Source: Antedon mediterranea
Lineage: Eukaryota; Echinodermata; Crinoidea; Comatulida; Antedonidae
Assembly (NCBI RefSeq): GCF_964355755.1
Contig: NC_092674.1
Location: 253,001 to 317,000 of the forward strand
Length of the DNA stretch: 64,000 nucleotides
Direction of reading: 5' to 3'
The translations under genes and the position numbers were made by a program. This document shows, piece by piece, positions 7,101 through 53,227 of this stretch (positions are counted from its first letter, which is position 1; each line of letters opens with the position of its first letter). The notes beneath the pieces are model-generated. The model saw only the letters and a list, made by a program, of their open reading frames with translations, was not told the DNA's origin and searched no databases.

Positions 7101-10100
7101 ATGAGAAGGTCTGCAGCACCCTCACAATGTCTGGGAAAACGTCCTTGTTTTAGTCCTCCGTTTATCCGAGCTACTAAAAAACATTGTTCAAGCAACAGTA
7201 TATCGCAAGAAGATCTGTCGTCAGTCCCAAATAACAAACAAATAAACAAATTTACACCACCAACTATCACGTCTGTTGTTTTTAATGAATCACTCCTGCC
7301 ACAGTCTACTAATTCAAAAAAAGAAACTTTAAAAAGTTTAGAAAATCATATGAATGATGCAGATTGTGAGAAAGAAGAGAAAGGACATGAAAGTACGACA
7401 AGTATACATAAAACAGAAAGTATTGTTGAACAAAAAATAAATTCAACTAACACTAACAGAGTTTTTGCAGATGTCACTAGACTTGAAAGATGCAAACAAA
7501 TTAAAGGAAAGTTTACAAACCCAAGTAGCAGTAACCTAACAATCCATCAGAAAAATGAAGAGGAACCAGAGTCTGTTTACTATGCTGTACTTTGGTCAGT
7601 CTTAGTACTTCCTTTCTTATAATAATCTTTTCATATTAAATAATTATGTAATATATATAATTTTTGACAACCTTAACATTTTGTTTACATTACTATAGGT
7701 GTAAAATGTCCAAAAAAAAGCACAAGAAATGGGAAGGTGATGGTAAGTAAGAAAACTATAAATGCAATGAATCCTAATTTTCTCTGCACTGCACAAGACT
7801 TTTTCTGGTTTAACACCCTCATCTATAATTATCTTCTATCTATATCTACAACTTACTGTTAATTTTATAAAAGTTTTTTTGTTATTTCTAATATTTACAC
7901 TAATCCGGTTTATGTTTTTGGTACTAGCCTTCTTAGCAACAAGAGGAAAGTATGTTCGGTTGATAGATCTTGATGGAAAGGAGTAAGCATATTTTTAATC
8001 ATTATATAATATATGAGACGAGTATGCAATATATAACCTAGTAATAATATAGATGTTATTATTTCAAAATGTCCATTAATACTAGATATTTAGGCAATTA
8101 CTGCCATATTAACGTTGTAATCTTGTGTTAGAATTGGCAAGGGAAGTGGCTACAAGTCAAGTGAGTTGAGTACAATGGATGAAGGCCATACACTATTCAT
8201 TGGAGGTAAAGAAATTGAGGTACAGTAATAGTAATTATTTTTTTTGTAATATTGTTTTATGTTGTGGTGAAATTTTTCAGCCGTATCAGCTGTAAATGAG
8301 TATTAAATGTTCAATGAAGATGATAAAAATGAAGTTAGAAATGTATTGGTAATGACACAAGGATTGATGTTTCTTTTTAGGTGATGAATAAAATTTCTAA
8401 AAAAGATTGGAACTCGGGACGTTGTTTTAATGCAGCAGCATCTGTCGCACCATCTTTTGAATCTCATGCTCCTTTAACTCATGCAACAGTTAAAGGATTC
8501 ATTAAGCCTACAAAGGCATGCTCTTCAAATATTAAGGTACAATTCAGATTAGATATTAAATTTAATAGACTGTTGGTAAAAGTGCTGTAAAAGTTTGTAC
8601 AGTATTCCTATTAAGCTCTGTCTACACTAATCTAGTTTGTCAAAAAGAGTGTGATGTGCCCAAATATGGTAGTGATATGACATCACATTTTTTTGTCACA
8701 TAGGTTGATAGTGTGGACAGAGCTTTAGTCATTTGTAGCAGGTCATAAAGCATTTTATTTTTTATTTATTTATTTTTTTGCAGACTGCCAAGTTGTTACC
8801 GCTATTTGACCCCAGTAAGCCAGATGCACTTGTGCTTCCTTCTCCCTCACCCACACAACAATGGAATAATCCAGCAGGCACTAAGGGCACTGTTGATGTT
8901 GTTGTTGATCCGCACCTGAGCAAGAAACTCCGACCACATCAACGTCAAGGAGTTGTTTTCTTATATGAATGTGTAATGGGAAAACACCAAGGATCTGGAG
9001 CTATTCTGGCGTTAGTTTTTATTGACTATTTTTATCCAATAAAAATGAAGGAACAATGAAAATAATTTGTATTAATGACTTTTAATTTTTTACAGAGATG
9101 ACATGGGTTTGGGCAAAACTTTGCAATGTATAACTTTAATATGGTAAGGTGTTTCTGTCTTTCACATAATAAGCATTTGTAATGATATAATATTAAATAA
9201 ACTAGGTTTTATTATCATTCCAAAATCACTACTAACAGAAGACTTGATATGTTTTATTTTTAAGGACGTTATTAAAACAAAACCCTTACAGTGGATCTCC
9301 AGTGCTTCGTAGAGTTTTAATAATCACCCCTGGAAGTCTTGTTAAGGTAAGAGTGTTCCCACAGTAGGTTGGTTAAAGACCAAACATGTTTGCATATGCT
9401 ATTGCTGTACTTTTCAGTTACTGCATATACAGCATACAGTATATTATTTGTACTAGACACAAAACTTTATACATTGTACTGTTTATTGATTGCAGAATAG
9501 AAAATATAATAGTATATTATTTAGGATAATTAAATATATATATTTTTTTTAGAATTGGTGCAGAGAATTTCGAAAATGGCTCGGAGATGAGCGAATTAAA
9601 GTTTTTGCTGTTTCAGGGGAAAAGAAAGTTCAGGTAACCTTGAAAAGAAACGTTTTATTATTCAAAAAAATTAAATGAAAGCAAATTATCCAGACAAAGC
9701 TTTATTTATAACCTTTTTATTTTAGGAATTTCTGCATTCTCCTATTTACCCTGTGATGATAATAAGCTATGAGATGTTTGTACGTTCACTTGAGGATGTT
9801 AAACGTTGTAAATTTGACATAATGATTTGTGATGAGGGACATAGACTTAAAAACACTGCTATCAAAACAACTACTGTAAGTAGAATATAAAGAGTAATGT
9901 TTTCATACACACACTCTGACAGTCACTTCATTGCACAACAAAATCAATGCTTATACTAGAATCAAGAAAATAGTCATATGGTCTATCGACAATTTGCTTT
10001 ATATTGTGTTTTTTTTTTTATTTAGATAATGTCATAAAGTGTAATGAATTTAAAAGGGGTAAATTTGCGTATTCACCATTGATCTTCAATGGAAATTTCC

Positions 10101-13100
10101 ATATCTTCAGAGATAAAACATCAAGACACAACTAATTATACAGGAATTTTTTTGCAGTTCTTATCTAGTTTACAAGTTAAAAGAAGAATCTTATTAACTG
10201 GAACTCCAATACAGGTACAGTATATGCACTCAATTGTATATGCACAGATCTGACCTGTATGCACACATTGTATATCCACACATTGTATATGCACAGATCT
10301 GACCTGTATCCACACATTGTATATCCACACATTGTATATGCACAGATCTGACCTGTATGCACACATTGTATATCCACGCATTGTATATGCACAGATCTGA
10401 CCTGTATGCACACATTGTATATCCACACATTGTAAATGCACAGATCTGACCTGTATGCACACATTGTATATCCACACATTATATATATGCACAGATCTGA
10501 CCTGTATGCACACATTGTATATCCACACATTGTATATGCACAGATCTGACCTGTATGCACACATTGTATATGCACAGATCTGACCTGTATCCACACATTG
10601 TATATCTACACATTGTATATGCACAGATCTGACCTGTATGCACACATTGTATATGCACACATTGTAAATGCACAGATCTGACCTGTATGCACACATTGTA
10701 TATCCACACATTGTAAATGCACAGATCTGACCTGTATGCACACATTGTATATGCACACATTGTATATGCACAGATCTGACCTGTATGCACACATTGTATA
10801 TCCACACATTGTATATGCACAGATCTGACCTGTATGCACACATTGTATATCCACACATTGTAAATGCACAGATCTGACCTGTATGCACACATTGTATATG
10901 CACAGATCTGACCTGTATGCACACATTGTATATCCACACATTGTATATCCACACATTGTATATGCACAGATCTGACCTGTATGCACACATTGTATATCCA
11001 CACATTGTATATGCACAGATCTGACCTGTATGCACACATTGTATATCCACACATTGTAAATGCACAGATCTGACCTGTATGCACACATTGTATATCCACA
11101 CATTGTAAATGCACAGATCTGACCTGTATGCACACATTGTATATCCACACATTGTATATGCACAGATCTGACCTGTATGCACACATTGTATATCCACACA
11201 TTGTATATGCACAGATCTGACCTGTATGCACACATTGTATATCCACACATTGTATATGCACAGATCTGACCTGTATGCACACATTGTATATCCACACATT
11301 GTATATGCACAGATCTGACCTGTATGCACACATTGTATATCCACACATTGTAAATGCACAGATCTGACCTGTATGCACACATTGTATATGCACACATTGT
11401 ATATGCACACATTGTATATGCACAGATCTGACCTGTATGCACACATTGTATATCCACACATTGTATATGCACAGATCTGACCTGTATCCACACATTGTAT
11501 ATCCACACATTGTATATGCACAGATCTGACCTGTATGCACACATTGTATATCCACACATTGTATATGCACAGATCTGACCTGTATGCACACATTGTATAT
11601 CCACACATTGTATATGCACAGATCTGACCTGTATGCACACATTGTATATCCACACATTGTATATGCACAGATCTGACGTGTATGCACACATTGTATATCC
11701 ACACATTGTAAATGCACAGATCTGACCTGTATGCACACATTGTATATCCACACATTGTATATGCACAGATCTGACCTGTATCCACACATTGTATATGCAC
11801 AGATCTGACCTGTATGCACACATTGTATATCCACACATTGTATATCCACACATTGTATATGCACAGATCTGACCTGTATGCACACATTGTATATCCACAC
11901 ATTGTATATGCAGAGATCTGACCTGTATCCACACATTGTATATCCACACATTGTATAAGCACAGATCTGACCTGTATGCACACATTGTATATCCACACAT
12001 TGTATATGCACAGATCTGACCTGTATCCACACATTGTATATCCACACATTGTATATGCACAGATCTGACCTGTATGCACACATTGTATATCCACACATTG
12101 TATATGCACAGATCTGACCTGTATGCACACATTGTATATCCACACATTGTAAATGCACAGATCTGACCTGTATGCACACATTGTATATCCACACATTGTA
12201 TATGCACAGATCTGACCTGTATGCACACATTGTATATCCACACATTGTAAATGCACAGATCTGACCTGTATGCACACATTGTATATCCACACATTGTATA
12301 TGCACAGATCTGACCTGTATGCACACATTGTATATCCACACATTGTATATGCACAGATCTGACCTGTATGCACACATTGTATATGCACACATTGTATATG
12401 CACAGATCTGACCTGTATGCACACATTGTATATCCACACATTGTATATGCACAGATCTGACCTGTATCCACACATTGTATATCCACACATTGTATATGCA
12501 CAGATCTGACCTGTATGCACACATTGTATATCCACACATTGTATATGCACAGATCTGACCTGTATGCACACATTGTATATCCACACATTGTATATGCACA
12601 GATCTGACGTGTATGCACACATTGTATATCCACACATTGTATATGCACAGATCTGACGTGTATGCACACATTGTATATCCACACATTGTATATGCACAGA
12701 TCTGACGTGTATGCACACATTGTATATCCACACATTGTATATGCACAGATCTGACCTGTATGCACACATTGTATATCCACACATTGTATATGCACAGATC
12801 TGACCTGTATGCACAAATTGTATATCCACACATTGTATATGCACAGATCTGACCTGTATGCACACATTGTATATCCACACATTGTATATGCACAGATCTG
12901 ACCTGTATGCACACATTGTATATCCACACATTGTATATGCACAGATCGGACCTGTATGCACACATTGTATATCCACACATTGTATATGCACAGATCTGAC
13001 CTGTATGCACACATTGTATATCCACACATTGTATATGCACAGATCTGACCTCTATGCACACATTGTATATCCACACATTGTAAATGCACAGATCTGACCT

Positions 13101-16100
13101 GTATGCACACATTGTATATCCACACATTGTATATGCACAGATCTGACCTGTATGCACACATTGTATATCCACACATTGTATATGCACAGATCTGACCTGT
13201 ATGCACACATTGTATATCCACACATTGTATATGCACAGATCTGACCTGTATGCACACATTGTATATCCACACATTGTATATGCACAGATCTGACCTGTAT
13301 GCACACATTGTATATCCACACATTGTATATGCACAGATCTGACCTGTATGCACACATTGTATATGCACAGATCTGACCTGTATGCACACATTGTATATCC
13401 ACACATTGTAAATGCACAGATCTGACCTGTATGCACACATTGTATATCCACACATTGTATATGCACAGATCTGACCTGTATGCACACATTGTATATCCAC
13501 ACATTGTATATGCACAGATCTGACCTGTATGCACACATTGTATATCCACACATTGTAAATGCACAGATCTGACCTGTATGCACACATTGTATATCCACAC
13601 ATTGTAAATGCACAGATCTGACCTGTATGCACACATTGTATATCCACACATTGTATATGCACAGATCTGACCTGTATGCACACATTGTATATCCACACAT
13701 TGTATATGCACAGATCTGACCTGTATGCACACATTGTATATCCACACATTGTATATGCACAGATCTGACCTGTATGCACACATTGTATATCCACACATTG
13801 TATATGCACAGATCTGACCTGTATGCACACATTGTATATCCACACATTGTATATGCACAGATCTGACCTGTATGCACACATTGTATATCCTATAAAGTAG
13901 TTCAATTCTCTCTCTATTTGTTTATTTTCAGAATGATTTACAAGAATTCTACTCACTTATTGAATTCTGCAATCCTGGAATATTGGGTAATTTAACCATT
14001 ATATCTTATTGAATTCTGCAATCCTGGAATATTGGGTAATTTAACCATTATATCTTATTGAATTCTGCAACCCTGGAATATTGGGTAATTTAACCATTAT
14101 ATCTTATTGAATTCTGCAACCCTGGAATATTGGGTAATTTAACCATTATATCTTATTGAATTCTGCAACCCTGGAATATTGGGTAATTTAACCATTATAT
14201 CTTATTGAATTCTGCAACCCTGGAATATTGGGTAATTTAACCATTATATCTTATTGAATTCTGCAATCCTGGAATATTGGGTAATTTTACCATTATATCT
14301 TATTGAATTCTGCAATCCTGTAATATTGGGTAATTTAACCATTATATCTTATTGAATTCTGCAACCCTGGAATATTTGGTAATTTAACCATTATATCTTA
14401 TTGAATTCTGCAACCCTGGAATATTAGGTAATTTAACCATTATATCTTTTTGAATTCTGCAACCCTGGAATATTGGGTAATTTAACCATTATATCTTATT
14501 GAATTCTGCAACCCTGGAATATTGGGTAATTTAACCATTATATCTTATTGAATTCTGCAACCCTGGAATATTGGGTAATTTAACCATTATATCTTATTGA
14601 ATTCTGCAATCCTGGAATATTGGGTAATTTAACCATTATATCTTATTGAATTCTGCAATCCTGGAATATTGGGTAATTTAACCATTATATCTTATTGAAT
14701 TCTGCAACCCTGGAATATTGGGTAATTTAACCATTATATCTTATTGAATTCTGCAACCCTGGAATATTGGGTAATTTAACCATTATATCTTATTGAATTC
14801 TGCAACCCTGGAATATTGGGTAATTTAACCATTATATCTTATTGAATTCTGCAACCCTGGAATATTGGGTAATTTAACCATTATATCTGATTGAATTCTG
14901 CAACCCTGGAATATTGGGTAATTTAACCATTATATCTTATTGAATTCTGCAACCCTGGAATATTGGGTAATTTAACCATTATATCTTATTGAATTCTGCA
15001 ACCCTGGAATATTGGGTAATTTAACCATTATATCTTATTGAATTCTGCAACCCTGGAATATTGGGTAATTTAACCATTATATCTTATTGAATTCTGCAAC
15101 CCTGGAATATTAGGTAATTTAACCATTATATCTTATTGAATTCTGCAACCCTGGAATATTAGGTAATTTATCCATTATCTTATTGAATTCTGCAACCCTG
15201 GAATATTGGGTAATTTAACCATTATATCTTATTGAATTCTGCAACCCTGGAATATTAGGTAATTTAACCATTATATCTTATTGAATTCTGCAACCCTGGA
15301 ATATTGGGTAATTTAACCATTATATCTTATTGAATTCTGCAACCCTGGAATATTAGGTAATTTAACCATTATATCTTATTGAATTCTGCAACCCTGGAAT
15401 ATTAGGTAATTTAACCATTATATTATATCTTATTGAATTCTGCAACCCTGGAATATTAGGTAATTTAACCATTATATCTTATTGAATTCTGCAACCCTGG
15501 AATATTAGGTAATTTAACCATTATATCTTATTGAATTCTGCAACCCTGGAATATTAGGTAATTTAACCATTATATCTTATTGAATTCTGCAATCCTGGAA
15601 TATTAGGTAATTTAACCATTATATCTTATTGAATTCTGCAATCCTGGAATATTGGGTAATTTAACCATTATATCTTATTGAATTCTGCAACCCTGGAATA
15701 TTAGGTAATTTAACCATTGTATCTTATTGAATTCTGCAACCCTGGAATATTAGGTAATTTAACCATTGTATCTTATTGAATTCTGCAACCCTGGAATATT
15801 GGGTAATTTAACCATTATATCTTATTGAATTCTGCAACCCTGGAATATTAGGTAATTTAACCATTATATCTTATTGAATTCTGCAACCCTGGAATATTGG
15901 GTAATTTAACCATTATATCTTATTGAATTCTGCAACCCTGGAATATTAGGTAATTTAACCATTATATCTTATTGAATTCTGCAACCCTGGGATATTAGGT
16001 AATTTAACCATTATATCTTATTGAATTCTGCAACCCTGGAATATTAGGTAATTTAACCATTATATCTTATTGAATTCTGCAACCCTGGAATATTGGGTAA

Positions 16101-19100
16101 TTTAACCATTATATCCTATTGAATTCTGCAACCCTGGAATATTGGGTAATTTAACCATTATATCTTATTGAATTCTGCAACCCTGGAATATTTGGTAATT
16201 TAACCATTATATCTTATTGAATTCTGCAACCCTGGAATATTGGGTAATTTAACCATTATATCTTATTGAATTCTGCAACCCTGGAATATTGGGTAATTTA
16301 ACCATTATATCTTATTGAATTCTGCAACCCTGAAATATTGGGTAATTTAACCATTATATCTTATTGAATTCTGCAACCCTGGAATATTGGGTAATTTAAC
16401 CATTATATCTTATTGAATTCTGCAACCCTGGAATATTGGGTAATTTAACCATTATATCTTATTGAATTCTGCAACCCTGGAATATTAGGTAATTTAACCA
16501 TTATATCTTATTGAATTCTGCAACCCTGGAATATTGGGTAATTTAACCATTATATCTTCAACAAAACCTACACAAATGCCTTAAAAGTTGCACTATTTAC
16601 TATATTCTTGGATTGATTCATTATTCTAGGCTCCAGTTCATCATTCCATCATGTGTATGAAGTGCCAATTGTAAGGTCTCGTCAGCCTGACGCAACTGAA
16701 GAGGACAAGCAGCTAGGTGCGACACGAGCAGCAGAGGTAATCATGTCAGTTCTTTGTTGACTTTAAAAATCTGATAAAAAACAAAGATGGTTTATATACT
16801 TATTTTGTTTACTTATTTTGTTTACTTATTTTGTTTACTTATTTTGTTTACTTATTTTGTTTACTTATTTTGTTTACTTATGTTTGTATTGTTAATGAAT
16901 AGTTTGTTGATTATTTTCACTATTGAATACATTTATTAGATTAATGTATTTATTTTTTAACAGCTGTCAAGAATAACAAAACAGTTTGTGTTGAGAAGAT
17001 CTCAAGATGTTATTAATATACATTTACCTCCTAAAGGTAATGTTTAAATTACATACCATTTCTTTAAAACTATGCATCATTAAAAGTGATAGATCAATTG
17101 TGGAAACATTAGCATTATGAATTCTTGTGATTTAGTGAATGATGCCGGCCAGATTATAAGCATAAGCCTCTAGCTAGTTTGGAACTGTACCATTACTGTA
17201 CATTAATCTTTATCTTTTAATCTTTCAGTTGAGAATGTCGTATTTTGTCAACCATCTAACCTCCAACTTCAACTCTATGAGTCTATACTTAAGTCGTGTA
17301 TTCTTAAGGAATGTCTAACAGGATTTTCCAATGGTGCATTACATCTTATGTGTATTTCAGCTATCAAAAAGTTATGCAGTGAACCTAGTCTTCTATTACC
17401 AGCCTGCTTAGAAGCAGACAGTAGTATACATGATGATAATTCGGTATGATATTTGCATTTAATAGAAAGTAAACAAATCAATTTATTTCAATAAAACCTG
17501 TTATATTTCACAGATTGTAAGGTCTTAATTATTTTTTAAATTTTGTTAGACACGTCTATACCAAGGACTTGCTAGTCTCTATCCAGACGTCTTTACAAGT
17601 GAAAACTTCAGTGTTGAATATAGTGGGAAGTTAAAGGTTCTTTCACAACTGCTGCATTCAGTCCATCAAAATGAGCCTGCATCAAAAGTTGTAGTTGTGT
17701 CTGCTTATACTCAGGTATTCACAAAGAAGTATCTTTAGTATAATTTTAATATTAGTACCTGTCTCTATGGATTGAATATTAACTATGAAACTACTGAGAC
17801 ATACTCAGTGCTTTGGCATCAATGTCAATTACTGATATACTGTAGCTGATAGTTACAGTATTGTATAATACTTAGTAAAGACGACACACAAAGATATGTG
17901 ATAACTTTGGTGACTTTAAATAACTTTCAAATAAAACAACATGGTGGTCAGCTCCGCACGTTGTTCAACCGTTACCTCCACAATAAGAACTCTCTACATG
18001 ACAAGTATGGGCGGCCTTAAGAGCCTCACAAATATATTATCATTCCCTGTTATATAAAATATATCTTAACTTGTACTATTTCTACTCTTAACTCCCACTA
18101 AATGTCTTTTGTTTTTCAGACATTAGATCTTTTACAGCGTCTTTGTGACTCTGCTAATTACAACTTTTGTCGTTTAGATGGCAGCACACCAACAGCAAAA
18201 AGACAAAATATTGTTGAACATTTTAACTCCTCTTATTCCAATGATTGTAAGTTCATCAAAATGAATTCAGTTGTTGACAAATTAGGTGCATTAAATAAAC
18301 AGTTTTCTTATGGTATATTTATTTTTAAATAAACACATATTATCTTTTTTGCAGTTGTATTTCTGTTAAGTTCCAAAGCAGGAGGTGTTGGTTTAAATCT
18401 GATTGGTGCTTCACGCCTCGTTCTGTATGACGTCGATTGGAATCCAGCCAATGATCTTCAGGTATTATTGCAGTTAACCTTATAGGCCTTGATTATATAC
18501 ATGTAATAACAACAGTTAACAGTTGTATATATACACTGGTCTATGGAAAGCCAAACCCGCCAAAAATACATAATACATACCATCCACCAATAATTAATTC
18601 GTACAAAATTCAAACCATCCAATATTATCTCATGCAGTTCAATGAAAACTTAAACCATTCACCTAGTATCTACACCATCCAATACAATGTGTGACCATCT
18701 ACCACTAGCCCAAACGACAATACGCCGAACAAACTACCCATAACACAAACCATCTAAAGAATGTTGAGCCCAGGCAGCAATAATTGAATTAATCTAACGT
18801 TAATACAAGTATATATTAGCCAACTCATTTATCAACATTTCATGTAGTTCATGAACATTTCAAACAAAGCATCTTAATTATAGTTCATCGAATTCTAATT
18901 CTAATACATTGCCTGTTTTATACACCGTTCGTCTGTTCAACAGTTTAAACAACTGTTTTGCACACGATACGCCCGTTCGTGAGTTCAAACCATGATATTT
19001 GAAGCATCGACTTTCCAAACAGCGATTTTTCGCACCGAACGTATTTTCTTGAGTTAAAGTGGTTGCATTTCAATCACTTACTTTTGATTGGCCAGTATTA

Positions 19101-22100
19101 CACACCGTTCGCTTGTTCGTGATTTCAAACCATGATATTTGAAGCATCGACTTTCCAAACGGCGATTTTTCGCACCGAACGTATTTTCTTGAGTTAAAGT
19201 GGTTGCATTTCAATCACCTACTTTCGATTGGCCAGTAGTACACACCGTTCGCTTGTTCGTGATTTCATGTGATAACATTTCATGCGACAACTTTTCAAAC
19301 GTTAGCTTTTGGCTCCGCTTACGTATATATCAGTTGATATACTATTTTTTAATGTTCACACTTTCCATACATCAGTTTTGTACATCATTCGCATTTACGC
19401 ATGTAAAGTGTAGATATTCCACTCGACAAGTTTTAAAACGGTAGTTTTTTTTTTATTGTTTAATTTTAACTGTTGGCGCCGATTTTATATTGGGGGGGGG
19501 GGGGGAGGTGTTCGGTACTGAATGTGAACAGTACACATTTTTAAATATGGTACCTCTACATGTCCGGAAATTACACTCTCTCAAAAAAGGGGGTTTTTTT
19601 CCGTATTGTGTAATATTAAATCAACCACAACCACAACCATAAGATGAGAACATTTTCTACGCCCGATCACAAATCTTGCCCGTCCTGGTCTGCCAGTGTG
19701 AATCATGGCAGAGTCCGTGGTGGGCGTATGTTCGTCTCCTACCTGGCCTGGGCCAATGACTTCTTCTATCGCTCTTTTACTCGCTACAAGATTATCGATT
19801 ACCTCTAACCGGATATCGTCATGCCCGATTAGATTATCGTTTCGATAATAACCTCCAGTCGCATTGGGAGTGGCATTAATAGATGTCTATCAATGTTACC
19901 ATTCACATACTGTTCAAGTGTTTGACAGATTTCTTGCAAAGCAATAGCAATAGGAACATACGCCATGTTAAAGACTTTTGGGAATATGAGAGGGGACTAT
20001 ACATTTTATTCTAGCTGGAATATTTTTAATGAGTACAATTTCAGGGCATAACATGTCCATTGTTCCTAAAATGTTCTCATCTTATGGTTGTGGTTGTGGT
20101 TGATTTAATATTACACACTACGGAAAAAAAACCCCTTTTTTGAGAGAGTGTAATTTCCGGACATGTAGAGGTACCATATTTAAAAATGTGTACTGTTCAC
20201 ATTCAGTACCGAACACCTCCCCCCCCCCCCAATATAAAATCGGCGCCAACAGTTACAATTAAACAATAAAAAAAAAAACTACCTTTTAAAACTTGTCGAG
20301 TGGAATATCTACACTTTACATGCGTAAATGCGAATGATGTACAAAACTGATGTATGGAAAGTATGAAAATTAAAAAATAGTATATCAACTGATATATACG
20401 TAAGCGGAGCCAAAAGCTAACGTTTGAAAAGTTGTCGAATGAAATGTTATCACATGAAATCACGAACAAGCGAACGGTGTGTAATACTGGCCAATCGAAA
20501 GTAGGTGATTGAAATGCAACCACTTTAACTCAAGAAAATACGTTCGGTGCGAAAAATCGCCGTTTGGAAAGTCGATGCTTCAAATATCATGGTTTGAAAT
20601 CACGAACAAGCGAACGGTGTGTAATACTGGCCAATCAAAAGTAAGTGATTGAAATGCAACCACTTTAACTCAAGAAAATACGTTCGGTGCGAAAAATCGC
20701 TGTTTGGAAAGTCGATGCTTCAAATATCATGGTTTGAACTCACGAACGGGCGTATCGTGTGCAAAACAGTTGTTTAAACTGTTGAACAGACGAACGGTGT
20801 ATAAAACAGGCAATGTATTAGAATTAGAATTCGATGAACTATAATTAAGATGCTTTGTTTGAAATGTTCATGAACTACATGAAATGTTGATAAATGAGTT
20901 GGCTAATATATACTTGTATTAACGTTAGATTAATTCAATTATTGCTGCCTGGGCTCAACATTCTTTAGATGGTTTGTGTTATGGGTAGTTTGTTCGGCGT
21001 ATTGTCGTTTGGGCTAGTGGTAGATGGTTACACATTGTATTGGATGGTGTAGATACTAGGTGAATGGTTTAAGTTTTCATTGAACTGCATGAGATAATAT
21101 TGGATGGTTTGAATTTTGTACGAATTAATTATTGGTGGATGGTATGTATTATGTATTTTTGGCGGGTTTGGCTTTCCATACTGGTCGTTTTGTATTGCAG
21201 TTAACCATAATGCTGTGATTATATACATGTATGTATTTATACATTATGTTTGTTTTGTAGGCTATGGCTAGAATATGGCGAGATGGACAAATGAAAAAAG
21301 TGCATATTTACAGACTCTTGACTACAGTATGAATGTTGTTTTTTTGTTAAATTAGGTTTTCCAAACTATTTTTTTTGCATTTTTTTTCTACTACTAAAAG
21401 TAATTTATTACAGCATAATACACAAAATAATTTACATAATTACATTGTTTTGTATCACAGGGTACAATAGAAGAGAAAATTTACCAGCGACAGATAAGCA
21501 AGCAAGGACTTAGTGGAGCTATTGTAGATGCTAACATTAATACTAAGACTGTGTTCTCAACTGAAGAACTTAAGGTAACACTAAAACCATGTTCTGGACA
21601 CGTCTGTTCTAGTTACTAGAGTATAATATTAATAATAATATCCATAATTCAATCAGCTATTGTAGTTTTCTTGCAAGATATGAGAATGAATTTTAAATAA
21701 TATTAGTTTGAACTGTTTCTGCCTTTTTTCACTTATAGGATCTGTTTACACTACACACAGACTCCGCATGTGTAACCCATGACCTCTTGACCTGTAGCTG
21801 TTCTTCACACAAGCAACTAAATTCTACTGTTGAAGCTCCAAGACGACGATGTCAATTGGGTGACAAGTCAACTCCTCGAAGCATATCAATGGATGAACTA
21901 CTTAAATGGCAGCACATTCCAGTATCTAAAGGCTCTATAAATAAGGTGTGTTATAAGTGTAATTACTAAATGTCTATACATGTATTTTACTTGGTTAATA
22001 TATAAATTAACTCAATTGCTTATATTTATTTTAGGATCCATGTCTCCAAAGCGATTCAATCACTTTTATATTCCGCAATGAAGTCAATGAAGGTGATGGT

Positions 22101-22118
22101 ACTCAATCAAGTCACTGA
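7101..22118 (+). CDS. RAD54B: RAD54B, SNF2-family DNA repair and recombination translocase
   Basis: Exons: 7101-7594, 7699-7742, 7928-7982, 8132-8219, 8381-8536, 8784-9010, 9096-9143, 9265-9346, 9553-9633, 9726-9875, 10158-10214, 13932-13986, 16630-16736, 16964-17036, 17229-17443, 17550-17714, 18120-18246, 18355-18461, 21261-21326, 21461-21574, 21739-21945, 22035-22118. They total 2802 nt, or 933 residues (human about 910). All listed introns are GT-AG. SNF2 motifs: Walker A DDMGLGKT (about 356-363), DEGH (461-464), LTGTPIQN (488-495), [11 protein letters not shown] (747-757), MARIWRDGQ (779-787). The order and the C-terminal [14 protein letters not shown] are RAD54B-like rather than RAD54L. 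The family translocates on duplex DNA in the nucleus and assists RAD51/DMC1 strand exchange. The long weakly conserved N-terminus carries [10 protein letters not shown], also typical. The gene is inflated by two minisatellite arrays flanking the 55-nt exon 13932-13986 and by a foldback transposon in the intron after 18461. Confidence 0.95.
8614..8725. mobile_element. TA-flanked MITE, family 1, copy B (RAD54B intron)
   Basis: Left end agctctgtctacacta, right end the complement (tagtgtggacagagctt), TA at 8612-8613 and 8726-8727. The body matches the copy at 3564-3701 (gtgtgatgtgccca, atgacatcac). Confidence 0.75.
10215..13889. repeat. 49-bp minisatellite array, about 75 units, in RAD54B intron
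   Basis: The unit is tatatgcacagatctgacc followed by tgtatgcacacattg and tatatccacacattg. Phase measured from gatctgacc at 13762 and 13811 gives 49 bp. The sub-unit acacattgtatat(c/g)c occurs one to three times per unit, so short and long variants are scattered through the array. It begins within about 20 bp of the donor of the exon ending 10214 and stops about 40 bp before the acceptor at 13931. Because 49 leaves remainder 1 on division by 3 and the unit lacks stops on the minus strand, frames of over 900 codons are open in all three minus phases; this is an artefact. Confidence 0.97.
13957..16556. repeat. 49-bp array that duplicates the end of a RAD54B exon and its splice donor, about 53 units
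   Basis: The unit is cttattgaattctgcaa, (c/t)cctggaatattgg, gtaatttaaccattatat. The first 31 bases of the first unit are the 3' end of RAD54B exon 13932-13986 (residues [11 protein letters not shown]); the remainder starts with its GT donor. All later units keep the same layout, so about 52 extra copies of exon end plus donor follow the true one. Variants are few (ttggg or ttagg before the donor, aac or aat codon). Splicing at any downstream donor would include a TGA 12 codons after the exon end. The period was checked at 13981 and 14030. Confidence 0.97.
16797..16880. repeat. 13-bp tandem repeat, about 6 copies
   Basis: The unit tttacttattttg repeats in the RAD54B intron after 16736. Confidence 0.85.
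18542..21180. mobile_element. 2.64-kb foldback DNA transposon with 1.1-kb inverted arms
   Basis: The left arm (18542-19656) and right arm (20068-21180) are near-perfect inverted complements, separated by a 411-bp unique loop. The termini are tatggaaagccaaacccgcc and its complement. A 6-bp direct repeat ctggtc flanks it (18536-18541, 21181-21186). A poly-G run sits near 19491-19505 in the left arm with poly-C at the mirror position. It lies in a RAD54B intron. The loop holds a transposase-like remnant. The 6-bp duplication and TAT...ATA ends recall what I remember of the IS3EU superfamily, but that assignment is tentative. Confidence 0.92.
19659..19856 (-). pseudogene. Transposase/integrase-like coding remnant in the foldback loop
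   Basis: A stop-free minus-strand frame of 66 codons reads [18 protein letters not shown], then [16 protein letters not shown] and ends [14 protein letters not shown]. The GRPGR.RF.I phrase resembles the region just ahead of the helix-turn-helix in a group of eukaryotic integrase-core transposases, from memory of that family. A second short minus frame starts at 19966 ([17 protein letters not shown]) in another phase, so a frameshift or intron separates the two. The catalytic core is absent. Family assignment is tentative. Confidence 0.45.
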
Positions 22119-22715: not shown

Positions 22716-24528
22716 TTATTCATCATATGCTTGGATTAGAGATTGCTTATATGTAATTTTAAAACTAAAAAGTGAAGGTTTCTTTATCAGTGAATGTGAA
22801 AGACTTTCCCAAAGTTTAGGTCCGGTATAAAGTATTGAATGACGTCTAATGTGCGAGTCGCAGTTTTTAACAGTGTATACATTAGTATTGGAAAAACGGG
22901 TAAAATGTGTATGGTTATCAGAAGGTTTAGTAAAGAGTGAACATATGTGGGTCGGAAGTAGATTATTTGTAAGTCGGTACATGAATAATGCAGTTTGAAG
23001 TTTATTAACATCAAAGACGTTGAGAGATTTGAAGTTAAAAAATAGGTGTTTTGAATGAGATCTGAATGATGCCCCTGAACAGATTCGGATTGCACGTTTT
23101 TGCAATTTAAAAATTCGGTCAATATTGGTAGTTTCGAAACTAGTCCAGGGGCATAAAGTGCTGAACTTGCCAAGTGTAACGGCCCAGGCAATGTTGCAGT
23201 ATGATATGTACGGAAGAATTAAAGTATTATATAACTTAAATAAAATGTTTGATGGAAGTGTGTACTTTAATTTGTTCATCATACCAGTGTTTCTCGCAAT
23301 TGTGTTGCAGATTGTATTGATATGATGTTTCCAAGATAATTTTGAGTCAATGGAGACGCCAAGAAATTTGGTTTCCTCAACACGTGTGATTACCTTGTCA
23401 TTAATTAAAACTTTTAAGTTTTGAGAGATGGATTTTTTGTTTTTATGTTTAAATATAATATAATTTGATTTGGATTCATTTAGCGATAATTTATTGATTT
23501 GGAACCAATCAGAAACTTTGCGTAATTCACTATTAATTGTATTAACTAAAATTTGATCATTTTTATGAGAATAAATAATATTAGTGTCATCCGCATAAAG
23601 TATAAATTTGAGTAATTTGGAACAGTTGGGGAGATCGTTTATATATGTTAGAAATAATAAGGGACACCGAGTATGGAGCCTTGCGGATAAGGTAGCTTTT
23701 TAAGAGTTTAAGAGGAAGGCCTCTGACACCATAGTGCTAAAGTTTGTGAAGAAGTATCTTATGATTGATAGTGTCAAAGGCCTTACTCAAGTCAAGAAAA
23801 ATACCAACGGTGTGTTCATTGTTTGAAAGTGCTGCAGAAGTCAGTTTATCATAGAGATCAGTTATTGCAGGGTCAGTGGAAAAAGCTTTTCTAAAACCGT
23901 ACTGATGCTTAAAGAGGATATCGTATTTAGAAAAAAAAAAGTAGGCCTATAAAGTCTGTTGTAGATTAGGCGTTCTAAAACCTTGGACAGGCAAGGCAGC
24001 AGGGAAATCGGTCTGTAATTTTCAAAGTAATGGGGATCGCCTTTTTTGAAAATAGGAATTACTTTGGCAATTTTTAAAAGGTCTGGAAAAATTCCAGTTT
24101 GAAATGATAGGTTAAAAATATGGACTAAGGCTTGGATATAAAGTTTATGATGTTTTTAATAACTTGATTGGAAAATCCATCAGATCCTGGACTCTTATTG
24201 TCCCTAAGTTTTAAGATTATATCAACAATTTCAGTTTCCGTTATTGGAGTTAAATATAGAGAGTTTGAAATAAAGGAATGATTAAGAAATGATTTAAAAT
24301 TTGAGTTGCCATTATATGAAATACTTTGCGCAAGGTTGTTCCCAATATTAATAAAATAATCATTAAATTGTTCAGCAATAAGTCCGGGATTAGTAATTTT
24401 ACAATTGTTTTTAAAAAAGTGAGAGGGTTGGTTTTGTTTTTTATTTTTACCTAAGATTCCATTGATTGTTCGCCAGGTCTTATGAATATTGTTGGTATAC
24501 TGGTTGAATTTTGAGGCATAATAGGCCC
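22716..24528 (-). pseudogene. LINE reverse transcriptase region, frameshifted
   Basis: Minus-strand frames together give a non-LTR reverse transcriptase: SPGSDG, YRPISLLPCLSKVLER, FLDLSKAFDTINHKIL, then FILYADDTNIIYS (catalytic YADD near 23586-23597), then the thumb-side FLGVSIDSKLSW and LYNTLILPYISYCNIAW. The frame shifts several times and one segment near 23640-23700 is damaged, so no single ORF remains. The last open piece is 22716-23282. Confidence 0.88.
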
Positions 24529-25962
24529 CTACTCTTTATTTGCTATGCGAAGTAAATTAGTTAGTTTGTTTCTATATTTTATGTATTTGTCCTTATCGGT
24601 CTGTTTCTTAGATTTGAGGTAGGCAGTATAGAGCTTATTTCTGGTACCAATTGATTTAATCAGACCGACAGTGATCCATGGTTTACGCTCTTTGCGAAAA
24701 TTACGTTTAATACGTGTAGTTTTAATACTGGAATTGTACAGACTGGTTAACTTGTTATTAAACAATTGATAGGCACGATTGGGATTGTCATTATTCGCAT
24801 ATATATCGGACCAGTCTGTATTTAGGAGGTCAGCAGATAAGGATGATATAGATTCATCGTCAATTTTTTGTAGGAGGATGAACTTATTGCTATTGGAGTT
24901 AGGTGGCTGGGAATATTGATTTTGATGGGTTAAAGAAAAAACAGGAAAATGGTCAGAAATATCTGAGTAAGTGATGCCGGTAGAAATTTTGTCATATGTA
25001 TTATTAGAGAAAATATTATCAATCAAGGTTGTCGTTTTTGTAGTTATTCGTGTAGGTTTAGTAATTAAAGGGAAGAAGTTGTTATTAAGCATTGCGTTAA
25101 GGAATTGGGACGTGCTATTATGAGTATTGCATTTTAACAGGTCTATATTGAAATCCCCGCAGATGTACGCTGTTTTATTTTCATTATTAACGATGTCGAG
25201 AATAAGGGAGATATTGATGTTAAATGAGGTCACCGATAACTCAGGCATACGATAAACAAGACCAAGAATGATGTTTTTCGGTTTGGCATTGATTTCAATA
25301 AAAATGGATTCGGATTCTTGAGAAATAAGAGATGAAAGATCGGATCGGTCGTTGTGTTGTGATCTCTGATCCAGGTATATGGCTACACCCCCTCCTGTTC
25401 TGGTTTTTCTAGATAACTCAATCAGTTTGTAGCCCTCAATGTTATAAAAAGAAAAATTTGTTTTATTGGAGTTGAAAAAGGTTTCAGAAAAACATAGGCC
25501 TAAGGCAGAGAAATCATGACTAATGGATTTTAAATAATCAGTTACTTCACTAAAGTGTTTAACGAGACTACGTGCATTTAGATGAAATAAACTGAAAGAA
25601 GAAACAATATTATTATATTTAGAGTTAAAATTATCAATGTGGTCATAATTACATGGTTCATGTAAAGTAGCATATTCGTCATTATCAATACGACCATTCA
25701 TACTGATATCAAATGGATTTAAAATAAGAGAGTTGATCCGATCGTATTCAATATCGTGGTCAAGTGAGAAATGCTTTAAAACATGTAAGAATTCATCATT
25801 GTCAACTATTGAATTAAAAGGAAATAAGTTTCCAGTGCAAGAGAGGCAGATCCATGAATTTACTTCAGACCTATGTATACATATTTTATGAGCCATAGAA
25901 TTACAAGCAGTGCATTTTAATAGGTCTGAGCCATGGACATTATTACATAAAATACAATTCAT
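24529..25962 (-). CDS. LINE ORF: PHD finger plus endonuclease
   Basis: This is an open frame of 477 codons. Residues 3-42 hold a complete C4HC3 PHD pattern (C3, C6, C17, C20, H25, C28, C39, C42). From about residue 125 an AP-type endonuclease follows: HLNARSL, an acidic residue in LCFSETF, the metal-binding GDFNID, and the closing SDISDHFPVF. This PHD plus endonuclease arrangement is found in some CR1/Jockey-group LINEs. The domain would nick target DNA for target-primed reverse transcription. The ORF ends before the reverse transcriptase, which lies in broken frames just downstream, so this copy is unlikely to be active. Confidence 0.85.
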   Translation of the reverse strand: MNCILCNNVHGSDLLKCTACNSMAHKICIHRSEVNSWICLSCTGNLFPFNSIVDNDEFLHVLKHFSLDHDIEYDRINSLILNPFDISMNGRIDNDEYATLHEPCNYDHIDNFNSKYNNIVSSFSLFHLNARSLVKHFSEVTDYLKSISHDFSALGLCFSETFFNSNKTNFSFYNIEGYKLIELSRKTRTGGGVAIYLDQRSQHNDRSDLSSLISQESESIFIEINAKPKNIILGLVYRMPELSVTSFNINISLILDIVNNENKTAYICGDFNIDLLKCNTHNSTSQFLNAMLNNNFFPLITKPTRITTKTTTLIDNIFSNNTYDKISTGITYSDISDHFPVFSLTHQNQYSQPPNSNSNKFILLQKIDDESISSLSADLLNTDWSDIYANNDNPNRAYQLFNNKLTSLYNSSIKTTRIKRNFRKERKPWITVGLIKSIGTRNKLYTAYLKSKKQTDKDKYIKYRNKLTNLLRIANKE

Positions 25963-26240
25963 TGTAAGAAAATAAAATATTCAAATAAATACAAATGTTG
26001 TAAAGACATTCAGTTTGTAGTTTTGGGACAATATAGATACAATATGTATAGGCTAGTAAGATTAGGCAATGAAAAAATAAATAGTAAAATAAAACAATAC
26101 AAAACAACAAAAGTAGAGCTATAAAAACATTGGTTCTGAGACAGCGTGTTGAAAGTATGATGAATGCTGTATTGAGATGTAGCCTACCGTATGCAAATTT
26201 GACATGTGGTAAGAGTGCTTTACAGAAGTAAATCAAACAG

Positions 26241-26693: not shown

Positions 26694-29600
26694 ATGTTGG
26701 TGCTAAGATTATTATTTTCAGCCCTTTTATATTCTAGATGGAATATTGTTTATGGTAAAAGTGATGATAAACTACTGCTGGTGAATGTGGTAAGTTGTCT
26801 CGGCAGCTACTAGGTTTGCTAATTGAGTATTTTAGCCTCAGTCTGATCAGCCTATTCTTCTCTCATGAATAGCTAGCTAGGCTTGGCATAGGCCTAGTCT
26901 GATTGTTTAGCGGATGCCGATTGCTTACTGTTGACATGTTGTAGAGAGTAAAGGTAGGCCTAGAGAGGTGGTCTTAATTTACTGTAGCTAGTGTAGGAGG
27001 CCCCAGGCCATCTGATTCATTCCATCTAACAGCATATATATTTCAATATTGAATTTTTTTTTATTTACTAAAATTTAAAAAATCCATTTTTTATTAAATT
27101 TTTCAGTTATATCGACATGGAGACAGATCACCTACATGTGCATATCCAAACGATAAATACAAGGAGGATTATTGGCCGCAGGGTTTTGGTCAACTTACAC
27201 AGGTAAACGATACTTTCAGAATTTAGACTCAATTCCTCCAGTTTTTTCGCTGATCAGAATAGCAACAGCAAGCACTGAAAAGCTTTCTTCACAATTAAAA
27301 TGATTACAAGCTCATCTTCTCTTCTTATAGATTGGTATGAATCGGCAGTATGATCTAGGCAAGTTCCTTCGCACCAGATATGATGATTTTCTGAATGAAA
27401 CCTACAAGCGATCACAGTTTGTAGTGCGTAGCACTGATGTTGACCGCACACTTATGTCTGCCCAATGTAATCTTGCTGGACTTTATCCTCCAGTTGGACA
27501 TCAAAAATGGAATCCGGAACTACCATGGCAACCAATACCTGTTCATGATGTGCCGATATCAGAGGATTATGTAATTAATTTTGTTTTTTAATTTGTGCTA
27601 CTCAATACATTCATTCATCGTTTTTTTTAATGTAATGATCTATCAAGACATTCAATTCAATTTAATGTGTAGGTACTAAGAACAGATGGGGTAAACTGTC
27701 CATTATATAATAAACTCTATGAAGATGTACTCAACAGCCCAGAGGTTAAGAAACTGAATGAAGATAATAAGGTATAAAACCTAATATTTTAATATTAAAC
27801 TGCTCATTATCTATGTTTCAATTTTAATATGTACTACATACTGTAAATATGAACTACTTTCCTACGCCAACTGTACTAACACTCTAGTATACACTTGTAT
27901 TCAGAAATTTCTGGAGAATGTATCAAAAAATGCTGGATATAATAAAACTCTTAAAATATCGGAAATATGGCATCTATATGACCCAGTGTTTGTGGAGGTA
28001 AGAGATACACATCAAATCATTCTCTATTCTGAGTTTATTGTAAAATATGGCATCTATATGACCCAGTGTTTGTGGAGGTGAGAGATACACATCAAATCCT
28101 TCTGTATTCTGAGTTTATTGTATATTATTTTATTTATACTGTTTTCTCTTTGTAATTACAGTATATGCATTATTAATAAATCTGATTGTTGCTTGTTAAT
28201 TATAAATACTGCATAATAATTCTTGTATAACTATAAATAACAGAACTGTGGTTTCAGTTTCATTTGTTTATTTGTCTGTCTTGTTTTCTTTTTTCCTATC
28301 TCTCGATTATTTTATTTAATGTTACTGAACTTTTTAAATGAACTTCACAAGATATTTTTTACTGTAGAGAATGAATAATTTAACTGAGCCTGGTTGGCTT
28401 ACAGATGGAGTGTTTACCAACATTACTCATTTGGCAGATATTGGTATGGCAAATCTATTCAAAGGCAAAGATATTGGGAAGTTAAAAGGAGGTACTATTA
28501 GATACATATGTTTTTAAAAATCCAGTTTAAATTTCACATTGCAAATCAACAAACCACCACTCCTTCTTTTTAGACAACTTCTAATCATTATTCATTTGTA
28601 CTTTTTCAGGTAATTTAGTACAACTGATGACTGAAAATATGAATAATAAGACTAAAGATGAAGATAGTAGGGTTAGGGTTAGGCCTCCCCCTATACTTAG
28701 AATGGAATAATCCACCTAACCCTAATCATTATTCATTTGTACTTTTTTCAGGTAATTTAGTACAACTGATGACTGAAAATATGAATAATAAGACTAAAGA
28801 TGAAGATAGTAAAATGAAGTTTTATATGTATTCAGCAGTAAGAACAAATATTATTTATCAAAATTGCCATAGACCATAATGGTTAGTAAATCCAATTTAC
28901 AGTATGTGACCTCCCATACATATCAAAATACTTTACTCTCTGTGGCCTCTTCCAGCTCCTCATAACCTGAAATTAGTAATACTTAGTATTGTATTTTATA
29001 AGTTACATAGTTTAATAAGACATATTTTCTTTATAGTTTTGTTTGGGGATTTCATAATCATAAATATTTTATTAATGTGATGTCAAAGTGTCTTTCCTGT
29101 TGGCTACAGTATTATTGTGTATTTTTCTTGATTTTCTAATATATTTTTTTTTAGCATGACACAACATTAGCTGCATTCTTATCTGCACTACAAATATATA
29201 ATGGATTCCAACCGCCATATGCTACCTGTGTTGGTGTTGAACTTTGGAAAAACAGCAAAATGTATGTATGTTTGCATTACAAATCTATAGATAAACCTAA
29301 ATCAACTGTTTAATGACAAGAGATCAACATTTTCATTTTATGTAGAAACCACTGTGTCAATAGTATCACAAAAAAGGCTTAAAAGTTTACTGATTAAAAT
29401 GAAGCTGAAAATAAGCACCTCAATCATCTTTTGTTTGTAGATTTAAAGACCTATTTCCAGATTGTGATGTTACAATGTTGTTTTATCTACTAAAAATACT
29501 TTTTTTCCCGCAGGGAGCCTTATGTAAAGATATGGTACAGGAATGATTCTACAACAGAACCATATGACCTATCTATCCCAGGATGCAACATAACTTGTAG

Positions 29601-49800: not shown

Positions 49801-51036
49801 AAAACCAATGTATTTGGTGATTAATTTTACCCAATTTTTCTTTTTTTTTCAGAGTTGGTGTTGAAGATGATGATGAACAACAAGGACACCATGTAGATTC
49901 AGTAAGTATGATACTTAAAAAGTGTAAGTATGATACTTACATTCAAGGGATTTCAAAACACAGTGGTGTGCTATTTGTTTTTATTTAACATCTTATGTTG
50001 ACAAATCTATGCTATGTTGACAAATCAATTAATAAAACATACTGTATAAGGAAGAACTATAATTGAACTTGGCTTTGAACCATCTAAATATTTCTTTTTA
50101 AAATATTTCCAAAAATAAGTGGATTAACTTTTCATGTATTGTCTCAAAACAGGGTACAATAGAACATCAGTTGCATCGTCAACGGCAAAAAGAGAAACAA
50201 GCTAAGATAGTTGCTCTGTGGTATGAATTTGACTTTAAGTATCCTTTTCTGATCAATGTAATGTTTAGTTATGACACGGATGTTTTTCTAGTAAGAATTT
50301 GTTTTCGAATTAATTTGTATAAAACACTTTAACCTTACTAATTAGCTAATTCTTTTACCATCTGCAAAAGATGTCCTTTGTGAAAACCTTTGCAGTTTGG
50401 TAACTTTACTACTGCTACTATAAACTGGAAAATTATTATTTTTTTGTTGAACCAAATAATACATACACAAATGGTATAAACACCTTTAGTGATGTTTCGT
50501 TGACATACTGTGAACTTCTTCAAACTACTGTTTGGAATAGTCTGTACAGTCTGGGAGACGCTGTGTAGTACCACCAGTAGTCTTGTTGTTGCTACTATGT
50601 TTACTATGTGCTCCTTAACTTTTATGAAGATATATGAAACCAATTTTTACAAATAAAGGAGCAGACTTGAGAGAAACGTTACCAGCATGCTGTCTACCAG
50701 TAGCACACTGTCTTATAAAACAGGTAAACAATTAATTAAAAAAAATTGAAATAACAGTTTTGAGTTTTGAGATAGGTATGAAAGATGAACTAGAACTGAT
50801 ACAAAAGCACACACTTCATTTGCATAATTAATATTTTTTAGGATGAAATGATCGTAGAAGACAGCGACACAGATTTTATATTATCGGAAGATGATATTGC
50901 ACCAACTGACTCTAATCAAGACACTCCTTCAGACACATTACCAGAAGATGATGCTGCTCTTGATGGTGACCTTGGGTTAGGAGCAACTAAACTGCAAGGG
51001 ATTCCACCAATGCCTAGCCAGCAAACTATTATATGA
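42930..51036 (+). CDS. SLC9A9: Organellar Na+(K+)/H+ exchanger, SLC9A6/7/9 type
   Basis: Exons: 42930-43179, 46469-46686, 46834-46911, 47060-47136, 47249-47349, 47522-47627, 47839-47965, 48315-48420, 48523-48611, 48803-48916, 49061-49172, 49585-49738, 49853-49901, 50153-50238, 50630-50723, 50842-51036; 1956 nt, 651 residues. The start gives a signal-like [18 protein letters not shown], then a membrane helix ending [15 protein letters not shown], characteristic of NHE6/7/9. Core motifs: [19 protein letters not shown] (about 162-182), [16 protein letters not shown], the transport ND in [15 protein letters not shown] (about 268-269), [42 protein letters not shown]. The cytosolic tail ends [13 protein letters not shown] then an acidic stretch. 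The family exchanges luminal protons for Na+ or K+ in endosomes. Three introns are U12-type and one is GC-AG. The symbol marks the subfamily only; 6, 7 and 9 cannot be separated here. Confidence 0.92.
43276..44310. mobile_element. 1.04-kb CGGACC-rich inverted-repeat element in the exchanger's first intron
   Basis: The left end tgtcacgacaaatatggtcc and the right end (gactgattttggtgtgaca) are imperfect inverted complements; inner blocks ctgtccggccggacc and ggtccggccggacag mirror exactly. A 4-bp repeat gagg flanks it (43272-43275, 44311-44314). The body carries a LINE 3'-end fragment, suggesting a nested insertion or an old composite. The superfamily is unknown. Confidence 0.6.
43738..43895 (+). 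mobile_element. LINE 3'-end fragment with (ATA)n tail
   Basis: The translation around 43750-43800 gives [14 protein letters not shown], like the C-terminus of CR1/L2-type reverse transcriptases, followed by acgctttataaattttgata and an (ATA/TAA)n run at about 43867-43893, the usual 3' tail of such elements. Confidence 0.55.
44320..45200. other. Exchanger intron sequence, no further feature
   Basis: A phrase related to ggtatgtca recurs at about 44571 and 44599, but I could not define an element. Confidence 0.35.
45203..46245. repeat. 43-bp minisatellite, about 24 copies, exchanger first intron
   Basis: The unit is tttcaatcaaataatatg, aaacgaagactagtgctatt, tgcac. Two units carry a 4-base insertion (gctacagtattt, near 45495 and 46060), two carry aaacaaag with tgctc, and two carry ctattgct. 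The second 4-base-insert unit, like the first, is followed by standard units, a hint of segmental duplication inside the array. It ends about 220 bp before exon 46469. Confidence 0.95.
47966..48314 (+). other. U12-type AT-AC intron in the exchanger
   Basis: The donor is atatccttta, the textbook AT-AC minor-spliceosome site. The acceptor is ac at 48313-48314, with the branch-like ttttacttaact about 14 nt upstream. Using these ends gives ...[15 protein letters not shown], matching the family (ALVTKFTK in human NHE6). No GT-AG alternative keeps the frame and the conserved residues. Confidence 0.9.
48421..48522 (+). other. GC-AG intron in the exchanger
   Basis: The donor reads cag|gcaagt and the acceptor caatag|gaattg. 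The junction gives [14 protein letters not shown] in frame. GC donors with an otherwise strong consensus are spliced by the major spliceosome. Confidence 0.85.
48917..49060 (+). other. U12-type GT-AG intron in the exchanger
   Basis: The donor is gtatccttt; a perfect branch site tccttaac lies about 14 nt before the acceptor ag at 49059-49060. The junction is [20 protein letters not shown]. Confidence 0.92.
49323..49574 (+). mobile_element. LINE reverse-transcriptase C-terminal fragment in exchanger intron
   Basis: A frame reads [32 protein letters not shown], then [15 protein letters not shown]. The PCYTxxRxLxxxxQxLLVVPR and FKxxLKTYLF pattern is the typical C-terminus of CR1/L2-like reverse transcriptases. 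It abuts exon 49585, whose acceptor follows directly. Confidence 0.65.
50239..50629 (+). other. U12-type GT-AG intron in the exchanger
   Basis: The donor is gtatcctttt; the branch site tccttaac sits about 11 nt before the acceptor ag at 50628-50629. The junction gives [18 protein letters not shown], matching the NHE6/9 tail. Confidence 0.92.
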
Positions 51037-53227
51037 AAGCCATTTTTATGAAATTATCAGAAGATGATTCTGCTCTTGATGGTTACCTTGGGTTAGGAGC
51101 AACTAAACTACAAGGGATTCCACCAATGCCTAGCCAGCAAACTATTATATGAAAGCCATTTTTATGAAATTATCAGAAGATGATTCTGCTCTTGATGGTG
51201 ACCTTGGGTTAGGAGCAACTAAACTACAAGGGATTCCACCAATGCCTAGCCAGCAAACTATTATATGAAAGCCATTTTTATGAAATTACCAGAAGATGAT
51301 TCTGCTCTTGATGGTGACCTTGGGTTTGGAGCAACTAAACTACAAGGGATTCCACCAATGCCTAGCCAGCAAACTATTATATGAAAGCCATTTTTATGAA
51401 ATTACCAGAAGATGATTCTGCTCTTGATGGTGACCTTGGGTTTGGAGCAACTAAACTACAAGGGATTCCACCAATGCCTAGCCAGCAAACTATTATATGA
51501 AAGCCATTTTTATGAAATTACCAGAAGATGATTCTGCTCTTGATGGTGACCTTGGGTTGGAGCAACTAAACTACAAGGGATTCCACCAATGCCTAGCCAG
51601 CAAACTATTATATGAAAGCCATTTTTATGAAATTACCAGAAGATGATTCTGCTCTTGATGGTGACCTTGGGTTAGGAGCAACTAAACTACAAGGGATTCC
51701 ACCAATGCCTAGCCAGCAAACTATTATATGAAAGCCATTTTTATGAAATTACCAGAAGATGATTCTGCTCTTGATGGTGACCTTGGGTTTGGAGCAACTA
51801 AACTACAAGGGATTCCACCAATGCCTAGCCAGCAAACTATTATATGAAAGCCATTTTTATGAAATTACCAGAAGATGATTCTGCTCTTGATGGTGACCTT
51901 GGGTTAGGAGCAACTAAACTGCAAGGGATTCCACCAATGCCTAGCCAGCAAACTATTATATGAAAGCCATTTTTATGAAATTACCAGAAGATGATTCTGC
52001 TCTTGATGGTGACCTTGGGTTAGGAGCAACTAAACTGCAAGGGATTCCACCAATGCCTAGCCAGCAAACTATTATATGAAAGCCATTTTTATGAAATTAT
52101 CAGAAGATGATTCTGCTCTTGATGGTGACCTTGGGTTTGGAGCAACTAAACTGCAAGGGATTCCACCAATGCCTAGCCAGCAAACTATTATATGAAAGCC
52201 ATTTTTATGAAATTACCAGAAGATGATTCTGCTCTTGATGGTGACCTTGGGTTTGGAGCAACTAAACTGCAAGGGATTCCACCAATGCCTAGCCAGCAAA
52301 CTATTATATGAAAGCCATTTTTATGAAATTACCAGAAGATGATTCTGCTCTTGATGGTGACCTTGGGTTTGGAGCAACTAAACTACAAGGGATTCCACCA
52401 ATGCCTAGCCAGCAAACTATTATATGAAAGCCATTTTTATGAAATTACCAGAAGATGATTCTGCTCTTGATGGTGACCTTGGGTTTGGAGCAACTAAACT
52501 ACAAGGGATTCCACCAATGCCTAGCCAGCAAACTATTATATGAAAGCCATTTTTATGAAATTACCAGAAGATGATTCTGCTCTTGATGGTGACCTTGGGT
52601 TTGGAGCAACTAAACTACAAGGGATTCCACCAATGCCTAGCCAGCAAACTATTATATGAAAGCCATTTTTATGAAATTACCAGAAGATGATTCTGCTCTT
52701 GATGGTGACCTTGGGTTTGGAGCAACTAAACTGCAAGGGATTCCACCAATGCCTAGCCAGCAAACTATTATATGAAAGCCATTTTTATGAAATTACCAGA
52801 AGATGATTCTGCTCTTGATGGTGACCTTGGGTTAGGAGCAACTAAACTACAAGGGATTCCACCAATGCCTAGCCAGCAAACTATTATATGAAAGCCATTT
52901 TTATGAAATTACCAGAAGATGATTCTGCTCTTGATGGTGACCTTGGGTTAGGAGCAACTAAACTGCAAGGGATTCCACCAATGCCTAGCCAGCAAACTAT
53001 TATATGAAAGCCATTTTTATGAAATTACCAGAAGATGATTCTGCTCTTGATGGTGACCTTGGGTTAGGAGCAACTAAACTACAAGGGATTCCACCAATGC
53101 CTAGCCAGCAAACTATTATATGAAAGCCATTTTTATGAAATTATCAGAAGATGATTCTGCTCTTGATGGTGACCTTGGGTTTGGAGCAACTAAACTACAA
53201 GGGATTCCACCAATGCCTAGCCAGCAT
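50937..53227. repeat. 116-bp array built from the exchanger's last exon and stop codon, about 20 copies
   Basis: The first unit is the coding end of the exchanger ([20 protein letters not shown], then [12 protein letters not shown] and TGA at 51034-51036) plus about 19 bp of 3' UTR. The unit then repeats with period 116 (gattctgctc at 51066 and 51182) to 53227; 19 units carry the stop and the last is truncated. Each later unit opens with atgaaatta(c/t)cagaagat, so nearly all encode a free-standing 34-residue frame ending at the same stop. Fixed difference from the true exon: GCT to TCT at the second alanine. TTA/TTT and CTG/CTA variants are mixed. One unit (about 51556) has a 1-base deletion. 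Confidence 0.97.

Follow-up and report, generated by a model that had tools for sequence, protein, structure and literature searches.

How does a gene that carries 53 nearly equal donors at the end of one exon keep its reading frame? Experiments on how a 5' splice site is chosen over its equals mostly rely on two or three engineered ones. At the RAD54B locus analyzed here there are 53 natural ones, the first two of which are identical over almost 100 nt. The locus lies in a 64-kb stretch of DNA (C5:253001-317000, hereafter the window) of a genome of 354 Mb in 18 contigs, 11 of them large, with a G+C content of about 29-34% in the samples taken. Matches to Rfam families were absent from the 64-kb window, and a search of the whole assembly for COX1 gave no hit.

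The exons of the gene were located with the human RAD54B protein as the query and were then joined at GT-AG splice sites. The gene and the two exons bordering the array are listed below; here and elsewhere, a slash within a motif marks the border in question.

7101..22118, + strand: RAD54B gene from ATG to stop, 22 coding exons, 930 amino acids, complete and uninterrupted (splice-site joining, Pfam, PDB match)
13932..13986, + strand: coding exon of 55 nt (18 residues plus G) ending in phase 1, with acceptor TTTTCAG and authentic donor TGG/GTAATT
16630..16736, + strand: next RAD54B exon (splice joining and alignment to 1z3i)

The spliced frame runs through 930 codons in 22 exons with no internal stop. 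Its protein contains the Pfam domains SNF2-rel_dom (1.8e-69) and Helicase_C (6.7e-22), and its best PDB match is zebrafish Rad54 (1z3i, E = 7e-152). When exon 13932-13986 is joined to 16630, the alignment with 1z3i is ungapped across the junction. Set against the human protein, the N-terminus (MRRSAAPSQ and a 14-residue stretch) is of the RAD54B type; the C-terminus is present as well. The gene is thus RAD54B, as the original prediction had it. A genome search found no second copy or retrocopy of RAD54B that would record the mature junction.

Three introns of the gene are expanded; the others measure 85-405 nt, and the median is about 180 nt. The intron just upstream of exon 13932-13986 has its donor, CAG/GTACAG, at 10214/10215 and is filled nearly completely by another minisatellite.

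10220..13890, no strand assigned: separate minisatellite with a 49-bp period (TRF)

This repeat is unrelated to the donor array, and the equal period of the two may be due to chance. A 2.8-kb intron of the gene contains two duplications with a 140-bp period (18975-19301 and 20455-20747) in opposite orientation, probably a pair of mobile elements. Beyond the gene, LINE-type remains lie on the minus strand at 22716-25980, where stretches of a PHD-like finger, an endonuclease and a reverse transcriptase were recognized by eye in open frames.

The short exon ends inside the first unit of the array.

13956..16558, + strand: mirage-type minisatellite, 53 units of 49 bp with one donor each (TRF and unit splitting)
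13956..14004, + strand: unit 1, exon end (31 nt) and first 18 nt of the intron

TRF reports 53.1 copies at 13956-16558, with a period of 49 and 97% matches. Direct splitting gives 53 units, of which 51 measure 49 bp, one 47 bp and one 54 bp, in 15 sequence types. Each unit joins 31 nt of exon (CTTATTGAATTCTGCAAYCCTGGAATATTRG) to 18 nt of intron (GTAATTTAACCATTATAT). Both the count of about 53 tandem copies and the makeup of the unit, the last 31 coding bases followed by the first 18 intron bases with the GT donor, had been predicted and are borne out. The predicted span needs a small correction: the array does start in exon 13932-13986, but it ends at 16558 with a 3-bp CTT remnant, not at 16556. 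Every unit also contains an EcoRI site (GAATTC). Such an array is far beyond chance. Searching the 354-Mb genome revealed no further copies of the 49-bp donor array beyond the RAD54B locus.

The donors are nearly identical, as had been claimed, but not wholly so. GTAATTT does not vary across the 53 units. Of the nine columns that differ among the 51 units of 49 bp, seven are exonic and two intronic. From -3 to +6, 34 units read TGGGTAATT, 17 read TAGGTAATT and two read TTGGTAATT; their pairing energies with U1 are -6.3, -6.5 and -5.1 kcal/mol, respectively. Unit 1 has TTGG/GT; TTAG/GT occurs in 17 units and TTTG/GT in two. Hence 17 decoys match U1 slightly better than donor 1 does (-6.5 vs -6.3 kcal/mol). 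Units 1 and 2 are identical, and since their donors agree from -31 to +67, local donor strength cannot separate the two. Of the 17 TTAG units, 14 lie in the second half of the array (Fisher p = 0.003), a pattern that local copying would produce. There was no significant higher-order periodicity in unit order at lags 1-26. As nine variable columns would miss the seven GTAATTT positions with a probability of 0.22, the invariance of this motif gives no evidence of selection on the decoy donors.

The reading frame does set donor 1 apart from the others.

14010..14012, + strand: TGA in unit 2, which stops all donors after the first (52 of 53), 26 codons into the exon
16538..16629, + strand: original 92-nt intron, kept 3' of the last donor (GT 16538 to AG 16629)

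Only donor 1 leads into 16630 in an open frame. All 52 later donors are closed by this TGA, in agreement with the earlier claim that the first donor alone gives the correct protein; a truncated product from a later one would be missing the motor's second half. With donor 1 in use, the original exon is preserved and the intron becomes 2,643 nt long. With donor 53, it is the original 92-nt intron that is preserved, and the exon grows to 2.6 kb. Because the last donor still heads the original intron, the array sets the original exon (donor 1) against the original intron (donor 53).

The edges of the array hint at its origin.

16556..16558 and 13956-13958, + strand: CTT common to the array edges (edge comparison)

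The left edge reads TACTCA/CTTATTG and the right edge ATTATAT/CTTCAAC. The shared CTT suggests that the founding duplication arose at a microhomology. The unexpanded intron would have spanned 16538, the present last donor, to 16629, and its 92 nt would have been like most RAD54B introns. In the founding step, a 49-bp duplication may have been primed by the 3-bp CTT, one copy of which would have been exonic and the other 49 bp away in the 92-nt intron. This would have copied the end of exon 13932-13986 together with its donor. Later growth to 53 copies may have proceeded by unequal exchange or slippage.

The array proved real; it is not the single oddity for which it had been taken, since it belongs to a described class of repeats and is one of several such arrays in the genome. 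In CHD1L (L021, C11:20813203-20813436, - strand), the end of an intron, the AG acceptor and the start of an exon are repeated as at least 17 tandem 90-bp units, a lower bound because the array extends past the sequence stretch examined. Only the last acceptor keeps the frame, making this array the mirror image of that in RAD54B. Further duplications lie within the window.

27963..28122, + strand: acid-phosphatase exon end and donor, 80 bp in two copies; donors 27998 and 28078, of which only the first keeps the frame
28581..28811, + strand: acceptor and exon start in a neighbouring part of the same acid-phosphatase gene, 90-bp duplication; acceptors 28610 and 28752, of which only the second keeps the frame
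50937..53226, + strand: Na/H exchanger C-terminal codons, stop codon and start of the 3' UTR, 116 bp in about 20 copies (TRF)

The two acid-phosphatase acceptor copies are separated by sequence that includes a short interstitial TTAGGG-like run (28669-28690). Assignment of the third gene to the Na/H exchanger family has weak Pfam support, taken exon by exon. In DDX6 (L041, positions 1784-2133), the coding sequence ends in about five 67-bp repeats, each with the stop codon. Border-spanning arrays were found in two of 30 helicase-domain loci, which indicates from a small sample that they are not rare in this genome. The kinase loci sampled were mostly intronless and uninformative on this point.

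Repeats of this kind are known as mirages, tandem repeats across exon-intron borders that were named in amphioxus, where they occur in Adh3, TnC, the globins Gb6 and Gb9, and PGBD5 (PMC3087553, PMC3902484). Their units measure 10-72 bp in Adh3 and near 150 bp in Gb6 and Gb9; splicing was normal by RT-PCR, and the repeats showed length and somatic instability (PMC3087553, PMC3902484). Like the arrays described here, they lie at 5' or 3' splice sites, number several per genome and have units of tens to more than 100 bp. The RAD54B array has the hallmarks of the class. All 53 units repeat exon and intron around one splice site, the authentic boundary lies at the array edge in unit 1, and the frame is intact. 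The CHD1L acceptor array and the acid-phosphatase duplications extend the phenomenon to more than one locus. Since border-spanning repeats had already been described in amphioxus, the RAD54B array can be regarded as an extreme mirage, with 53 donor copies compared with 3-6 units in amphioxus Gb6. Arrays of stop codons are a feature of the present genome, unlike amphioxus mirages. The reported cases found under this name come from cephalochordate hosts. The G+C content and the 11 large contigs of the present host presumably do not fit Branchiostoma. Tandem repeats at exon-intron borders have also been described in human segmental duplications, with about four units on average (PMC2812944). There, too, minisatellite expansion across the border alters intron or exon length; those repeats lie in recent paralogues, whereas the RAD54B array lies in a single-copy conserved gene.

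We consider it quite likely that the array is a mirage-type minisatellite in a working RAD54B gene, which arose by CTT-primed duplication, expanded and is tolerated by means of exon definition. The splicing machinery would match the acceptor at 13931 to whichever donor it reaches first on the other side of the exon. By this pairing, RAD54B could tolerate the array: exon 13932-13986 would keep its size and the other 52 donors would become intron. The four splice-site duplications of the genome (two donor, two acceptor) bear on this proposal. In 4/4 of them the frame is kept by the copy closest to the exon body. This pattern describes what the cell must achieve and is neither a measurement nor a proof of clean splicing, as a gene disrupted by a wrong choice would no longer appear intact. 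If the first transcribed site always won, the two donor cases would be accounted for but not the two acceptor cases, and a preference for the shortest intron would account for none of the four. All four agree with pairing between nearest partners across the exon, and exon definition would be the single simple rule that covers them. At donor arrays, retention of U1 at the first donor by the elongating polymerase may contribute; in human cells, U1 keeps upstream 5' splice sites attached to polymerase II (PMC8316553). Even so, a small share of mis-spliced, nonsense-containing transcripts would be expected.

Two considerations, beside the human case discussed below, count against this explanation. 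One is the shortness of most RAD54B introns, which points to definition across the intron and not across the exon. The other is that work by Eperon and colleagues and by Krainer and colleagues, cited in PMC8724738, is reported to have found that competition between equal donors in vitro tends to favour the intron-proximal one; here this would be donor 53, which makes the RAD54B locus a sharp test.

One natural precedent for the use of several donors is human IFI6 (6-16/G1P3), whose repeats are reportedly short, at 12 bp. In this gene a tandem ladder of functional-looking donors likewise stands at one exon end, and downstream units are used as donors, yielding three mRNAs that encode isoforms, according to a passage in PMC4526556 that cites Turri 1995. 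The 52 later donors of RAD54B differ in that they meet the TGA at 14010. A fraction of RAD54B transcripts might use later donors as in IFI6, and the array would then reduce or regulate RAD54B output by way of premature stops and nonsense-mediated decay. The common GTAATTT, the similar U1 energies with 17 slightly better decoys and the position of the original short intron at the last donor would all allow this. The Adh, TnC and globin mirages of amphioxus, however, yielded no aberrant mRNA (PMC3087553, PMC3902484), and the RAD54B gene is otherwise intact. We therefore rate such later-donor use as rather unlikely.

The length of the array could also be a product of assembly, the true locus having one or few copies. 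Tandem arrays are error-prone, and the amphioxus draft had one published mirage wrongly assembled (PMC3087553). Against this stand the irregular order of the 15 unit types, including the 47- and 54-bp units, and the size of the array: 2.6 kb is less than a typical long read, and the assembly has very long contigs. The chance of such an artefact appears very slight. Stepwise removal of the intron from within the array is more improbable still. It would treat the 17 TTAG/GTAATT units, in which an AG directly precedes the donor, as zero-length recursive sites; each unit also has a branch-like TTTAAC motif, and true acceptors have upstream pyrimidine shares of 0.60-0.85, a range that includes the 0.60 seen here. 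There is no clear pyrimidine tract, however, and local copying already explains the position of 14 of the 17 TTAG units in the second half. Taken more broadly, there is a slim chance that the array is more than tolerated, whether it serves recursive splicing via these units or acts as a regulated switch that turns RAD54B off by later-donor premature stops. A tolerated mirage remains the reading we prefer.

This kind of feature is known; what stands out here is how large the array is, together with the mirror-image counterpart in CHD1L and the repeated occurrence of such arrays in one genome. The RAD54B and CHD1L arrays together provide a natural test of exon definition against first-transcribed preference and intron proximity. 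In addition, border-spanning arrays serve as a warning for gene-prediction software. Finally, the results suggest that minisatellites across exon-intron borders also occur outside amphioxus, a point relevant to models of intron gain and lengthening.
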